Shown: positions 20,293 through 33,080 of the stretch, in pieces
How positions within the stretch are numbered: the stretch's first letter is position 1
How the letters are laid out: every line of letters starts with the position of its first letter
Assembly: GCA_026545225.1 (NCBI GenBank)
Contig: CM048853.1
Span: forward strand, 45,772,755-45,836,754
Direction: 5' to 3'
DNA: 64,000 bases
Origin: Cornus controversa
Taxonomy: Eukaryota > Streptophyta > Magnoliopsida > Cornales > Cornaceae
Notes under the pieces: model-generated
The model's database searches: none
Seen by the model: the letters and a program-made list of their open reading frames with translations, nothing else
Told to the model about the DNA's origin: nothing
Translations under genes and position numbers: made by a program

Positions 20293-23085
20293 TCAGGCCT
20301 TTCCAATTTTAGGGGGCTGCTCAAAATGAAGAAGGAAGAAAAACGAGCCATAAGATTCTTTTGTATAATCATCAAGAGTTGAAATTAAAGGTGAAAAAAC
20401 AAGAAGAAAAAGAGAAAGGAGAACATTTAGTTCTAGAGTCTAAAATCCATTAAAAAAAACGCACACAACTTGACAAAGGAAGAACCATGTAAATGCAAAT
20501 ATACCTTTTTAAGAGGCAACTTTGAACTGCTTGGTTTATAATCAACCGGTTTCAATATCTCAAAAGAACATACTAGAGCATCGTCAACACTCAATAGAGC
20601 ACCTGCATTGTCAAACTCCCCACCATAGTTTGGAGCTGAAAATATCGTGACAAGTCTTCTCTTAGCAAAGAATTCATATCCATCCTCCACCACCTGCAAT
20701 TTAACTTATATTTAACTCATTGCCCGGACTTCTTTAATCACATAACTATCAGTCTGCTGCAGGTAAATATGACAAAAGAAAAAAAATACGTGGCTGCATG
20801 TCACACGTCAAATGATAAATAAACTCACCATGCGGTGTAAGGTTCAATGTGCTAGATAAAAATGGATAAAGAAAAAGGTCGCTCAGAGGTTATGAAGGCT
20901 TTGCCATCAAATTATCTTAAACACATCGATGGCCATCCGAATACTTAAAACAATTTGTAGATGATGCATAAACTCACCATGAAGTGCAAAGGACAGTCTA
21001 TTAGTAGTAACAAGAGAGAAAAGAAAAAGGTTCGGTCACAGTCGTGAAGGCTTTACCATCATTTACCTTAAGCATGTCAACGGCCATCAGAATGCTTAAA
21101 ACCATTTGCAGAATATTTAAATTAGAACATAAATCCAAAGATGGGCTAGGAAAGAAATTATAAATATAAACTTTAAAAAAAACACTTAAAACAGTGGAAA
21201 GTAATGTAATAGGCTAACAGCATAAGTTGTAATGGCAGCACTATTTCTAAAGAACAACATAACAGTGCACAGATGCTTGCTTAACTATTTCTGAAGAACA
21301 CAACAGCATATAGATATTTGTTTCACACTGATCATTTTTTGAGACCATCATCTTATGTTCTCTTTTTGGGGGCTAAGTTATCATCTAATGTTTAACCGCT
21401 AGACGACCTCCTATAATTGAATTGAATTGGGTTGAATCATACCATTAAACCTATTGACTATTTTAAGCAGGTAGGAAGAACAATATAGGAATGCACAAGA
21501 AGGCTAAAATTTTGCCATCCTTGTGTATATGCCATTGATAAATGGTATTTGAGCTTGCTCAATGAAAACTTGAGTACCTGATGACCACGGCAAATGAGGT
21601 CTAGATCATGCTTATCCAAAAATTCAGCTACTTTGTCAGGTCCAAAAGTACATGACACACCTCGATCACTATCTGACCATCCCTCAACCCTAGGATCAGG
21701 ATCAGCCCAAAGCAAATCACATAGAAGACCAGTATCTGGAATATCAGTGGGCCTCTGAACGTCCTTTATTTGATCAAAATTTTCCAACTCTGGAGAAAGT
21801 CCCCCATGCATACAAAATATTTTTTCATCAATGAGTGCAGCAACAGGCAAGCAGTTAAAGCAGTCGGTGAATATTTTCCACAACCGAACATTAAATCTCC
21901 TTTTACATTCGTCGTAAAAACCATATATCCGATTGATTTTTGCATCTTCATGGTTTCCCCTCAAAAGAAAAACTTTGTCAGGATATCTTATTTTATAGGC
22001 CAATAGCAAACATATTGTTTCCAAGCTTTGCTTGCCTCGATCTACATAATCCCCAAGAAAGAGGTAGTTTGCAGCAGGAGGGTAACCACCGTATTCAAAA
22101 AGCCTCAATAGGTCCTGGTATTGTCCATGTATATCACCTGTAGAACACTTGTATATTAGTCGGGCCATAGAAATAGAGGCAACAAAAGGTATACTAATAT
22201 ATAAAATTAGCTGAACAGTTTAGTAATGCGGCATCTCTGGTATGCATCTCATGCAAATTAGCAAAAAAGCCCAAGGATTGAATTTGGATTGAACCACCAC
22301 AGATTGGTGGTGTATCAGAAAAGACAGATGAAAGTGTTCTAGAGCTGAAGCAGGTGGTAGAAACCTAAAAACTGCTTGTTACTACCGAGCCAATTCGTTC
22401 GTATTAATATTCAATATTGCCGAGGCCTGTATCATTATCTACCTTGGCATTCAGTGGGGGAAAAAAAAGAAGAAAGAAAATTATCATAATGTTGAACTTT
22501 TAGGTCTAGAACTTCTCTGTTGGAAGTTTATAAGCTTTAGTGATAATCATTTCCCGGAAGAAAATTAATATTTAAGAGTGAACTCAAAAAAGGAAAAACT
22601 ATTTTCAATCAGTGATAAATGATAATCTTCCCACAAGTCAATTTTATGTTGTTTAGCGAACAATTCTTAAACTAATTTCAATTAGTGATAAATGATGATC
22701 TTTCCACAAGATGTCATTTTTATGTTGTTTAGCGAACAATTCTTAAGAATTTTGATCTACACATAATAAAACTGCAACCATTTTACAGGACCCATTTGCA
22801 TCTACACATAATCAATTCATCCAATCAACAGAACAATATACAATCTAACCGACCTCCCATTCCCGAAAAAATTATACATATAAAAAATAAAAAATAAATC
22901 CTTCACACCCAAATTGAGAGAAACCTAAAGTTCATCTACAAATCAACCAAATGTAAAATTTAACATTATAATCCTCTATTTTGAAATTAAAAATACATCA
23001 TTTGTAGAACATAAAACATCATAATCTTTCTTTCGGTAAATCATAAAACATCATAATCTTGAAAGAATATAATTACTATTCAAGA

Positions 23086-23898: not shown

Positions 23899-24311
23899 TT
23901 ATTGGATGACATGCATACATACACATATTTGTGCACATGACTCCATATAATATCTATATTTGACAACTTACATATTTCAAAATAGGAGAAATACCAAATA
24001 ATATTGGTGTACAAAATCCACTTTAAGACAATGTAATTATGTACGTGACAACTTTAAATCTCATAATTTCGTACTTGAAAATTTTTCGTGCTCATTTTTC
24101 ATACTTTAGTTCAAATTATCTCTTTTTGTACAAATTTTATTTGGACAAATTACATTTTGACTCCCTGAGGTATGTCCACATATGTCAATCTGACCTCCCC
24201 ACGTTTGCAAATCTTTATTTTCACCCCTGTAGTTTTGGTTGACTTTGGTCAATAAGATGCTAAATGACTAAACTACCCTACTTATATACAGTAAATTACA
24301 TTTTGATGTTG

Positions 24312-25760
24312 CCCCGAATCTTCCAACTAACTTGAGAGCTCTGCTCTTGGAGCATGCCAAGCCGGCCATCATCGTGGCAACCGGCACTGGTACCATCCCC
24401 GCCATCGCCATGTCCGTCGGTGAAACCCTCAAAATCCCTACCACCTCCTTCGCCACCGCCCAAGATGGTGACCCCACTAAAAATAAACGAAAGCGTCCTG
24501 CAAACAGCAAGTACGTTAACGTCAATAATGACATAGTCTCGATCGCCTTCGGTCTGGCACCAATTGGAGCAATGACACCACCCCAAACACTCGTACCCAT
24601 GTGGGCCATACCATCAAATACAACTCCAACATTTTGGATGATCTTAGGGATGGCAATTTTGTCCGCCCCGGCGGGTTTCTGTTCCGTCCCGCCCTATTTA
24701 GGACGGGTATGTGAGTCATTTTTTTTCCGTAGGGGCGGGTTTGGAAAAAAAATCAAAACCTGACGCGGGTACGAGGCGGGTTTGGGATTCTATAATAACC
24801 TGTCCCGTACCCGCCCCGCCTCGCCCCGCTTATATATTTTATTATTATAAATATATTTATATATATATATATATATATATGTATACAAATTATAATTTTA
24901 CTTTTGGTTGTATTAAGACTTATGTTTTCATTTTATCTTTTTGTTGTATTAACACTTCTTTAATTGTTGGATTAAACTTGTTACTAAGTTATTTAGTTAT
25001 GAAATATATTTTCTGTAATAAGCTATTTAATTGTGGAATCTTGTCATTTTACTTCTTAAACATGGGTTATACTATTTTGAATTTAATAGTATCAAACTTG
25101 GTACTACTCACTAGGCTCGTATTTTTTGAAAAAATCAATTTTTATTGATGTTTGATGTGGTTACAATTTTGTGGGGAGGGGCTCCGTCTCATCCCGCCCC
25201 TTTTGAAATTTTAAACGGGACGGGGCAGGCGAGGATGGGGTGGGGTTTCTCCCAACGGGGCGGGGATGTGTTTTAAAATTTCGTCCCGTTTCAAACCCGC
25301 GGCGGGTTTGGTAATAGTGTTGAAGGCAGCGGGGCGGGGACGGGTTTAGGCAAACCCGTGCTGTACTCGCCCCGTTGCCATCCTTAATGATTCCATCGGC
25401 AACCGCCATTGCTGGGCCTTTAAATCAACCCCAATTTTGGACATTTTCGACCAATGCAACGTCGATGATCAACCTATCAGCAAGACCCATCTCATCTTTT
25501 GTACCTTCAATACAACCAACCATCAATATCAGTACAGTAACACCATTAGAGCTTCAAGCTTTGCCAACCTCAGTCACTGTAAGTTCCAGAGTCGGTGCCA
25601 AAATTAAAAGAGCAGTTTTAACTAATGCCCCAAGTTCAACTTCTTCTGCTAAATCTCTAATGTTCAGAGACTTTTCGTTAGAGATTTATGATAAACAGGA
25701 GCTTTAGTTCATGGGATCACGCAAGTGCTTCTGCAAGTTTGAGGTTGTTTTGTTGAACAA
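24312..25760 (+). pseudogene. Captured class I TCP (TCP9/TCP19-like) transcription factor fragment
   Basis: Translation starts inside the TCP domain: RIFQLT then a stop, where an Arg codon is expected. About a dozen codons (the LGHKSDGETIRW segment) are missing with a frame change. It then reads LLLEHAKPAII.ATGTGTIPAIAMSVG, the hallmark end of the class I TCP domain, then TLKIPTT, KRKRPANSKY and LVPMWAIPS. After the MITE at 24645-25386 the homology resumes with QFWTFSTNATSMINLSARP and ends RDFSLEIYDKQEL, followed by TAG where Gln is expected. The N-terminal basic region of the TCP domain is absent. It cannot encode a working factor; any role would be as RNA. Confidence 0.85.
24645..25386. mobile_element. 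hAT-type MITE inserted in the TCP fragment
   Basis: It begins TAGGGATGGCAA and ends TTGCCATCCTTA, inverted ends shared with the element at 53429-53888. Interior arms are rich in CCCGCCCCG-type words, a familiar plant hAT MITE style. The flanking 8 bases (GATGATCT and ATGATTCC) are an imperfect duplication around the TGGATGATTCC expected in the TCP gene. It contains an (AT)n run near 24858. Confidence 0.8.
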
Positions 25761-25769
25761 CCAATTTGC

Positions 25770-26265
25770 TTAAGAAACACCACAACCACCACCACCATCC
25801 ATACCTACAACCACATCCACCACCATGCCCACACCAATTTCACTAATTTTCTCACTTTCTCGATGATCTCAAGAACAGTTTGCTTAAGAAACTCCACAAC
25901 CACCACCGCCATTCATACCCACAACCACTTCCACCACCATGCCCACACCCCAATCACCACTGCATATTTCGGGCGAATGAACCTGTGACCATGGTGGTCG
26001 CTAGCCTCAAATACCACAATCTGTTGCATCACAACCACCATCCTCAACCCCCACCCCCAAAATGAAACCACCATCCCTACCTCCACAACCACCACTGCCT
26101 CTCGCTTTCCAACTCAGCAGTAGCGCTGCCACCATCCCCACTCCCATCCCCACCACCACCACCATCCCGACCTCCATAACCACCACCGCCATCCATACCT
26201 ACAACCACAACCACCACCATGCCCACACCACAATCACCACTGCGTATTCCGACGAATGAACCGGT
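25770..26265 (+). repeat. CCACCA-rich imperfect repeats inside the Pack-MULE
   Basis: Units containing TTGCTTAAGAAAC.CCACAACC and CATACC.ACAACCAC followed by CCACCACCATGCCCACACC recur about three times. In both directions this yields long open frames of skewed composition (Pro/His-rich or Gly/Val-rich), which are repeat artefacts rather than genes. Confidence 0.7.
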
Positions 26266-26586
26266 AACCACAATCTGTTGCATCACAACCTGCTGTCGAC
26301 GATAATCTATATATATATATATGTATGTATGTAGTTATATATGTATGTATATGAATATATTTTCCTCAATCTGTAAATTAAGAGTCACACATATAAATGA
26401 TTGGGACTACATTGTAGGATATTTTGCATATTTTTTAGTTACCGTTTGCATGATGTAACTAATATGACAAAGTGATGTATAATTTCAAATCTCAAGGATG
26501 AAAATGGCTGAGGTAAGGGAGGGGGACATATTAACGTATGAACAAATTTCAGGGAATATTCCAAATGTAATTTACCCATTTTATCT

Positions 26587-31138: not shown

Positions 31139-31657
31139 CTAATAAGAAGAAACACCAAATGGGTTTGTTCTAAGCTTGCTTACTTGTCCATTGTCACAAT
31201 TGAATCCACAGCCACATTGAGGGCACTCCTCAAAATTGTCAACCGAGAACCCGGCCGACGCGATCCCCACCGAGAATTCCAGGTCATCTCCGCTCCGATC
31301 GACCTCGACGATGTTAACCCACAAGAAAAGCAGCTTTACTTTGACACCCTCCAAGCTTGAGAGCTTTCCTTTGGATATATAGCCTTTGATTGTGGACTTG
31401 TAGCTCAATTGGTATGAACCCTCGATAGAAAAGCCACAATTTTTATCCAGATATGCAGAGAATTTTCCTGTGGATTCGTCTAAATCGAAGCCTGTGACAC
31501 CTTTGGGTAATATACCTTTGGGAAAGTTGTAGTCTTCGAGGACCTCGTAGGCCGTTGGCTTGTCGCCGGCGGAATTTGCCGGCGATGAGAAGATGAGAAT
31601 GATGCAAGTGATTGTTGTTAGGGTTTTGAAGCTTTGGGCGTAACTCACGAAACCCAT
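31139..31657 (-). CDS. DUF538 family secreted protein
   Basis: A single-exon gene of 172 aa. Residues 1-30 are a signal peptide with hydrophobic core and a likely cleavage after ANSA. The mature part is a DUF538 domain: TAYEVLEDYNFPKGILPKGV near residues 35-54, then GKFSAYLDKNCGFSIEG, YKSTIKGYISKGKLSSLEGVKVK, FLWVNIVEV and FSVGIASAGFSVDNFEECPQCGCGFNC. This is the full order typical of the family, with normal length. The family is plant-specific, small and soluble; some members are reported as stress- or trichome-associated, but no biochemical activity is settled. The start was chosen because it gives the signal peptide. No intron is needed. Confidence 0.93.
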   Translation of the reverse strand: MGFVSYAQSFKTLTTITCIILIFSSPANSAGDKPTAYEVLEDYNFPKGILPKGVTGFDLDESTGKFSAYLDKNCGFSIEGSYQLSYKSTIKGYISKGKLSSLEGVKVKLLFLWVNIVEVDRSGDDLEFSVGIASAGFSVDNFEECPQCGCGFNCDNGQVSKLRTNPFGVSSY

Positions 31658-33080
31658 CTCTCTCTCTCTCTATCCTACTACTCGTCTATCGGTTTCCCTC
31701 TTCCCTCTTTACCTCTTGACTTCCTTTCTCTTCTCTCCCTATGGCGGAGAGAGGAATGGTAGTTGAGGTCTTACCTCCTCATTCAACAACATTCAAATAT
31801 TCTTTAATTTGTCCACGTGTCATTGTTGAAATTTTTTTTCTAAATCTCACTAAATAAATCTGAGGCTTCTTTGTCAATGGGCTTCAAGTTAAACCAATTT
31901 AGCCCGCTATCCCAAAGCCAGTTTTAAGCCCATACCCGGACATATTTCAAGCCCACAGCCAGCTATCCCAGAGTACAAAGACTGGGCTTGGGTTTCTTAG
32001 AAAGCCTTTAGACTCGGCCTATTAAACAGTTAAAGCCGGGTGGGCTAAACCCTGGGCTCTCAAACCACGAGTCGAACTGGTCTGGCCCGTAACGCACCCT
32101 TTTCTTCAACCAATTTCTCTAACCGGAGCCCAATCCACGTTGAAAAGTTTCAATTCAGGTTGAACTCAAGTTAGAGAAATCAGTGAAAATCGGATTGTTT
32201 TTGGGTCAGTTTAAAGCTATATTAAATTATGTAAATTTCTAAAAAATGTACAAACAAATTCCAAGAAAATTAATTCTCTAAAATATTAATATACAATAAA
32301 TTAAGATTTAAGCAAAGAAAGTTGAAAAGAAAAAATTGATGACAATTTGAGATATATATATAATATTTAAAATTTTAAATACATATAAAAATTATAATTT
32401 GAGTTCGAGTTCGAGTTCGAGTTCGAGTTGAATTTGGATTGCTAACACCTCGACCCAACTTAACCTTGATTGTAAAAATATTAAAAATAATTGTCCCAAC
32501 TTGTGAAGTATCAAACCGGACTCAAATTAGCATGTTCAAGTTACAACTATAGTCATGATTGTCCAATCTTAATCATTAGGTGTTGTGGATATAAATAAGA
32601 AGTGTTTTTAGCTTAATATATATGAATGTTGTAATTTGACATTGATTTTTTTAGCCCATCTTGTTATCAAGCTTGAACTTAGGAACGAGTTTGAGTTTGT
32701 GCAGAAATTCAAAAGTAAATGAGCCAACTGATTGAGTTCTAGCTGAGTGAGCAGTCATTGAGCTGAGCTCCAATTCTTATTCCTAATTTCAATTCAATCT
32801 AAATTTGAAAAAGAAAAAAAAACATCAATTTAATGAAGTCAAAGAGGAATGGGCCAAAGGCCCATGTGAACAAAACATGAGAAAGGGGGGCATACCAACC
32901 GAAACATGAGAAAGCAAGACCCCAACCTAGAAATAGGCCCAATACCATAACGAAAATCCAAGCCCAAATCAAAATTAGGCCCAAGCCTACTCCTTTATTG
33001 ATTGTTACTCTGATTTTGTACAAAATCTGATAGGTTTGTTGAATCTCTCTTAAATGTACCCCCATAAAATGTTACTAGCA
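31658..33080. other. 5' flank of the DUF538 gene and repeat-rich DNA
   Basis: The region just upstream of the ATG is pyrimidine-rich on the sense strand's complement (GAGAGA in sense). Farther out there is a (GAGTTC)n run at about 32400-32429. Text around 31880-32100 and 32870-33000 is rich in GGCCCA/GGGCTT words, typical of degenerate transposon sequence. No gene seen. Confidence 0.5.

Follow-up and report, generated by a model that had tools for sequence, protein, structure and literature searches.

Pack-MULEs of rice are said to have been described by Jiang et al. 2004. As an element type Pack-MULEs are already well known, and the presence of pieces of one gene in both orientations within a single family is a useful natural record of gene uptake. 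Among the families whose published descriptions we compared, the nearest to the one reported here is tomato PM-ZIBP, a tandem-TIR Pack-MULE family with 14 copies, 13 of which carry tandem TIRs at both ends (PMC3310237). In the passages of that article on tandem-TIR elements, its authors see no evidence of gene acquisition, and the mechanism by which Pack-MULEs take up genes is called still to be understood (PMC3310237). A literature search over titles and abstract openings, with subscription journals mostly outside it, named no TCP capture by a Pack-MULE. Where the excerpts of other articles mention Pack-MULE and TCP together, TCP stands for tricellular pollen or for a binding site.

The locus studied here lies in a 64-kb window, meaning the whole stretch of DNA analysed (C9:45772755-45836754), in an assembly that was searched over 771.7 Mb and 61 contigs. 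Positions 24143-26577 of the window are confirmed as a non-autonomous Mutator-like element of the Pack-MULE class. Its termini read GGACAAATTACATTTTGAC from 24143 and GGGTAAATTACATTTGG from 26577 inward, and it is bordered by ATTTTATTT (24134-24142) and ATTTTATCT (26578-26586), identical at 8 of 9 positions, that is, a 9-bp target duplication with one mismatch. Taken by itself this AT-rich duplication would be weak evidence; the same ends recur at other loci with perfect 9-bp duplications (ATCTCTAAT on C6, TTAAAATTA on C1, TATTATCTA on C7 and ATTAAATTA on C5), which bears out the Mutator-style inverted ends and imperfect duplication described in an earlier sequence-only reading of this DNA. 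Duplications were scored as the best over shifts of up to 3 bases and lengths of 8-10, a scoring in which part of the matches may be chance, and the 16 TCP-bearing elements of the family then comprise four with a perfect 9-bp duplication, three with one mismatch (the window, C6b and C9b, the pairing in C9b being doubtful), one with a perfect 8-bp duplication, six that are poorer and two without an end pair in the locus examined. For 12 TCP-less elements the counts are five perfect 9-bp duplications (two of them almost all A), one perfect 8-bp duplication, two with one mismatch, one poorer and three without a pair. The inverted ends are long: the left end can be aligned over positions 1 to ~80-95 with right ends from several copies (71-80%), and in the window element 32 nt of the left and right ends are alignable at 75%.

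The left end of the window element (24143-24289, plus strand), made up of the outer TIR and a subterminal region, is common to other family members and leads into a second, inner TIR tip of 17 bp (AGTAAATTACATTTTGA, 24290-24306, plus strand), which lies immediately 5' of the TCP piece. On the opposite side, a CCACCA-rich, minisatellite-like interior (25762-26300) that is common to TCP-less family members is followed by the right end (26301-26577, minus strand). This right part (25760-26577) has at least 114 matches in the genome, with 40 of 294 candidates scored, and the ends together with the CCACCA-rich interior recur widely. In agreement with what had been stated earlier, no transposase domain was found: zero Pfam matches at E 0.1 came from the 8 ORFs scanned in the window element. 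The MULE domain PF10551 has at least 150 matches in the genome (150 of 886 candidates scored), none of which could be tied to the family ends as an autonomous partner, and we suppose that the element would have been moved by a transposase provided in trans. The same window holds two minus-strand ORFs, one at 21458-22219, ~2 kb from the element, whose resemblance is presumably to an exon of serine/threonine phosphatase PP1, and one at 31139-31669, which we take to resemble a plant DUF538 protein.

A genome search for the parental TCP gene found, as the best match outside the MULE family, an intact and uninterrupted ORF of 381 codons on a different contig (C7:53387142-53388287). Its TCP domain (PF03634, Pfam E 1.3e-26) spans residues 117-195, and we take both the parent and the window fragment to be class I TCP, TCP9/TCP19-like. 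Aligned to this parent, the TCP sequence of the window consists of two plus-strand pieces, 24307-24644 (parent CDS ~412-780) and 25387-25722 (CDS 775-1110), matched in three alignments, CDS 419-447, 485-779 and 775-1110, at 90-93% identity; the start at ~24307, CDS ~412, was placed by eye, and the blast matches start at CDS 419. Since the captured piece starts near parent residue 138, inside the TCP domain, the basic part of the domain is missing, in agreement with the sequence-only reading. The lesions which that reading listed were also recovered, namely a nonsense codon (CGA>TGA, 24333-24335), an internal deletion of 31 bp between 24341 and 24342 and a terminal Gln-to-stop change (CAG>TAG, 25705-25707). 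The TAG is found in the C6 copy too, and neither the TGA nor the 31-bp deletion was seen there. The fragment had been placed at 24312-24644 and 25387-25760, which stands as far as the presence of two TCP pieces is concerned; TCP homology stops at 25722, and the adjoining 25723-25761 (minus strand) reads VQQNNLKLAEAL, ~12 codons that are DELLA-derived. This stretch is what remains of a second captured gene, DELLA/GRAS, and its DNA matches (92-94% over 32-36 bp) the DELLA cargo carried by the sister elements L050, L066 and L070; neither C6 nor the reversed-orientation loci compared, some of which are partial, showed it. Because the TCP piece adjoins the DELLA remnant, the window element is chimeric.

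The TCP piece of the window copy is moreover interrupted by a 742-bp insert (TAGGGATGGCAA...TTGCCATCCTTA, 24645-25386, plus strand), a non-autonomous element from a high-copy family of ~745 bp with at least 39 other long copies that are 89-91% identical (40 of 1330 candidates scored). Copies elsewhere have short inverted tips and a perfect 8-bp target duplication in all seven cases examined, and the imperfect duplication of the window insert (GATGATCT / ATGATTCC) is read as decay plus one missing base. Presumably the insert belongs to the hAT family; its likeness to non-autonomous hAT elements consists of the short inverted tips TAGGGATGGCAA and the 8-bp target duplications. An assignment to PIF/Harbinger with a TTA duplication was dropped in view of the perfect 8-bp duplications in 7/7 other copies. 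The insert is a passenger of the window copy and unconnected with gene uptake. The hAT insert splitting the TCP piece, the DELLA remnant and the opposite TCP orientations within the family are additions to the sequence-only reading.

With 28 of 28 candidates scored, the genome search with the parent CDS returned 51 matches, which correspond to the parent, the 16 family elements (the window included) and 11 more diverged places with 70-81% identity to the parent CDS. Translation of two of these diverged places showed full TCP ORFs; the remaining ones are presumed paralogs. Besides the parent itself, all matches of at least 86% fall within the 16 elements, and no match to a captured piece lies outside CDS 210-1110 in this search. 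The 16 elements share the same TIRs and occupy dispersed sites, some with perfect target duplications of their own, and 13 TCP-less elements were present in the same family comparison. The copy at C6:61249 has the same orientation, left joint and TAG as the window together with its own perfect 9-bp duplication, which indicates that element and cargo moved together. Two TCP-bearing elements on C2 (24480683-24483788 and 24917079-24920184), 436 kb apart, have identical bases just outside both ends and probably represent a segmental duplication rather than two insertions.

We are highly confident that a Pack-MULE captured a piece of the TCP gene, which later decayed, a judgement that leaves the number of captures aside. 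A decayed resident TCP gene that chanced to sit between two transposon ends would likewise show a broken, pseudogene-like reading frame, but in this genome the TCP homology stops within the element, inside its ends; a further 15 loci have TCP pieces enclosed by the same ends, in some cases with target duplications; and no full TCP gene adjoins the element, the parent being located on another contig. On these grounds we rejected the resident gene as scarcely credible. Highly improbable, too, is an mRNA-derived, retroposed TCP copy that was later mobilised with the element. The piece does lack introns, as had been pointed out from the sequence, but this is uninformative, since the parent ORF has no interruption either, and the matched pieces all lie within CDS 210-1110, with no UTR and no poly(A).

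Under the favoured capture by a Pack-MULE, ~CDS 412-1110 of the TCP gene would have been taken up at the inner edge of the element's left end, beside the DELLA remnant. TCP runs along the left-end direction, (+), in two elements (the window and C6:61249) and is reversed, (-), in the other 14. The (+) piece covers ~CDS 412-1110 in the window; that of C6 is a little shorter at its far joint. The (-) joints lie at CDS 1099 (C5:53657 and C4:44382), at CDS 1042 (C4:40791, C4:75925 and C8:31446) and at CDS ~860-882 (nine elements); away from the left end the (-) pieces extend as far as CDS 210. None goes above 1099, and no single (-) element spans 210-1099. One (-) element, L033 (C4:44381482-44384716), is a two-gene chimera of TCP and an Isy1-family fragment; Pfam E values for Isy1 in the C4:44382 (-) element are 1.5e-11 and 7e-14.

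In TCP-bearing elements the cargo is preceded by the inner 17-bp TIR tip or by a variant form: C2c and C7b have it twice over, and its sequence is altered in C6b, C4c and the 1042 group. The (+) joint of the window and C6 and the (-) 1099 joint fall at the same left-end base, just behind this inner tip. A genome pattern search for the tip, with up to 2 mismatches, gave 50 places, against 2 for a reversed control pattern, and 30 of the 50 were taken as loci, 13 of them TCP elements and 17 others. Eight of these 17 (L049, L050, L053, L054, L061, L066, L068 and L073) combine the family left end and the inner tip with other cargo; L071 has the same cargo, with the left end represented by its inner part only; in L070 and L074 the outer TIR is directly followed by a second, fuller one, from which the 17-bp inner tip may derive; and the other six look unrelated to this arrangement. 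Most other-cargo loci have ~14 bp (CTATGTACAACCAC or similar) between tip and cargo, so their exact joining base differs from that of the TCP elements. The cargo of L050 is GRAS (Pfam E 5e-7 and 3e-11) and matches the DELLA protein RGA at E 9e-17, and that of L049 is a fatty acid hydroxylase (Pfam E 5e-8), presumably a sterol-methyl-oxidase (SMO-like). L050, L053, L054, L061, L066 and L071 have common cargo near ATGAGAAAAGGCAGAGG, which gave no Pfam match in the two frames scanned.

At the ~882 joints, nine in all, the sequence is ATTTTGA-ACTGA-GATGGG or nearly so, which resembles the 1099 joint, ATTTTGA-ACTGAAG; the TGA of ACTGA also fits the donor sequence there, and only AC, two bases, is diagnostic of the 1099 joint. 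At the 1042 joints, an ATTT microhomology fits either way. All (-) joints may derive from one (-) capture via deletions, on joint evidence that is thin, and the idea that every (-) joint was its own capture is not favoured. We hypothesise, with considerable reserve, that these MULEs have a reusable capture port in their left end, with gene pieces repeatedly joined just behind the inner tip: the same TCP gene at least twice, in opposite ways and at the same base, and the SMO-like and other cargo ~14 bp further in. The (+) and (-) sets could then potentially give complementary RNAs.

As to the number of captures, we lean slightly towards the same TCP gene having been captured at least twice by the family, once in each orientation, perhaps through template switching in repair beside the internal copy of the TIR tip. 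This reading is favoured because the cargo orientations are opposite, the gene limits are not nested ((+) to CDS 1110, (-) from 210 to 1099), the DELLA remnant stands at the far joint of the window, and the left ends differ at one site (AAACTA vs AAAATA), where the 13 (-) elements that retain the site have A, and C or T is found in (+) ends, in other-cargo ends and in those TCP-less ends that could be aligned. Our confidence was a little higher before the joints and site 879 were rechecked, and was lowered for that reason. Somewhat short of an even chance we place a single capture, in which an ancestral element held CDS 210-1110 or more and a later inversion of the TCP piece in one lineage gave rise to the window and C6 copies. 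The (+) and (-) 1099 joints use the identical left-end base, as a single capture would have it, and 11 bp separate the two outer gene limits (1110 and 1099). A T at 809, outside CG and CHG, is present in the window, C6, C5, C4a and C7a, i.e. in both orientation groups. When the comparison is confined to the 571 sites for which the two (+) elements and one or more (-) elements have sequence, no covering copy agrees with the parent at three of them (804, 879 and 1071, all third positions). At 804 and 1071 the base of the copies is also that of the nearest paralog, which points to changes in the parent, but at 879 the paralog agrees with the parent, and the difference there is possibly a change common to the copy lineage. 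Furthermore, the left ends of the (+) and (-) groups are not separated with support, in a poorly resolved tree with values of 54 for the (-) group and 23-32 around the (+) elements. Two further observations count against two captures: the DELLA remnant is present in the window and absent from C6, and the right-end tree, likewise poorly resolved, leaves window and C6 ungrouped, C6 pairing with a TCP-less element at 93. On the other hand, a single capture requires an inversion with one break precisely at the left joint, and has to accommodate the diagnostic left-end site as well as the far joint of the window with its DELLA remnant, which was not seen in the (-) loci compared.

After its capture, at least twice or once, the window copy accumulated changes of a particular kind. 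We scored 621 sites; the brief match at 419-447 was omitted, as were six sites chosen in advance as likely to have changed in the parent lineage (222, 651, 675, 804, 879 and 1071). The copy differs from the parent at 46 of them, and 39 of the 46 are C>T or G>A. Sorted by context, the differences amount to 16/78 at CG, 15/62 at CHG, 14/187 at CHH and 1/294 at A/T sites (CG+CHG vs A/T, Fisher p 1e-15), and by codon position they are spread 15/15/16. The 16 elements pooled, as copies that are not independent, give 180/961 at CG, 133/765 at CHG, 125/1926 at CHH and 39/2892 at A/T. An excess of C>T and G>A at CG and CHG is expected of long-methylated plant DNA. The window copy is most likely methylated and silenced, a pseudogene now decaying neutrally, and a protein function is disfavoured by its frameshift and stop codons and by the evenness with which the three codon positions are hit. 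The sequence of events would be that the copy became methylated, decayed without constraint, was split by the hAT element and is now silent. It is unlikely, in our view, that the family acts in trans on its parent, with the 2 sense and 14 antisense elements, if transcribed from the same end, pairing to give small RNAs against the TCP mRNA. The opposite orientations could supply both strands, 103 exact 21-mers are common to the window and the parent CDS (the longest exact match is 49 nt), and the 16 elements jointly cover 451 of the 1126 possible 21-mer starts of the parent CDS; captured genes are also described as siRNA reservoirs in maize in passages of a review (PMC13317346). Against such action, the parent has a CpG observed/expected of 1.0, with no CpG loss and without the methylation-type decay of the copies, so that its sequence bears no mark of silencing.

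For the host, captured coding DNA decays at CG and CHG sites and the donor gene remains intact. Moreover, many copies of one donor gene, in both orientations and with readable joints, open the acquisition step to study from sequence. Like rice Pack-MULEs as characterised in parts of PMC13317346, the elements are non-autonomous MULEs with internal host-gene fragments and cargo from more than one gene; as a possible difference, the Cornus family of 16 TCP-bearing elements holds pieces of one gene in both orientations. Animal Pack-TIR elements, for which the excerpted text of PMC8277862 gives gap filling or replication-fork switching, likewise show microhomology at joints and amplification by later transposition; those are animal elements, whereas for the Cornus family the repair model is only proposed. 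With tomato PM-ZIBP, as its published description in PMC3310237 goes, the Cornus family has in common that it is a multi-copy Pack-MULE family with extra internal TIR sequence and one captured gene, and it bears on the remark made there about tandem-TIR elements and gene acquisition. It differs from PM-ZIBP in having a 17-bp inner TIR tip at the left end, followed by several kinds of cargo, and cargo that runs both ways.
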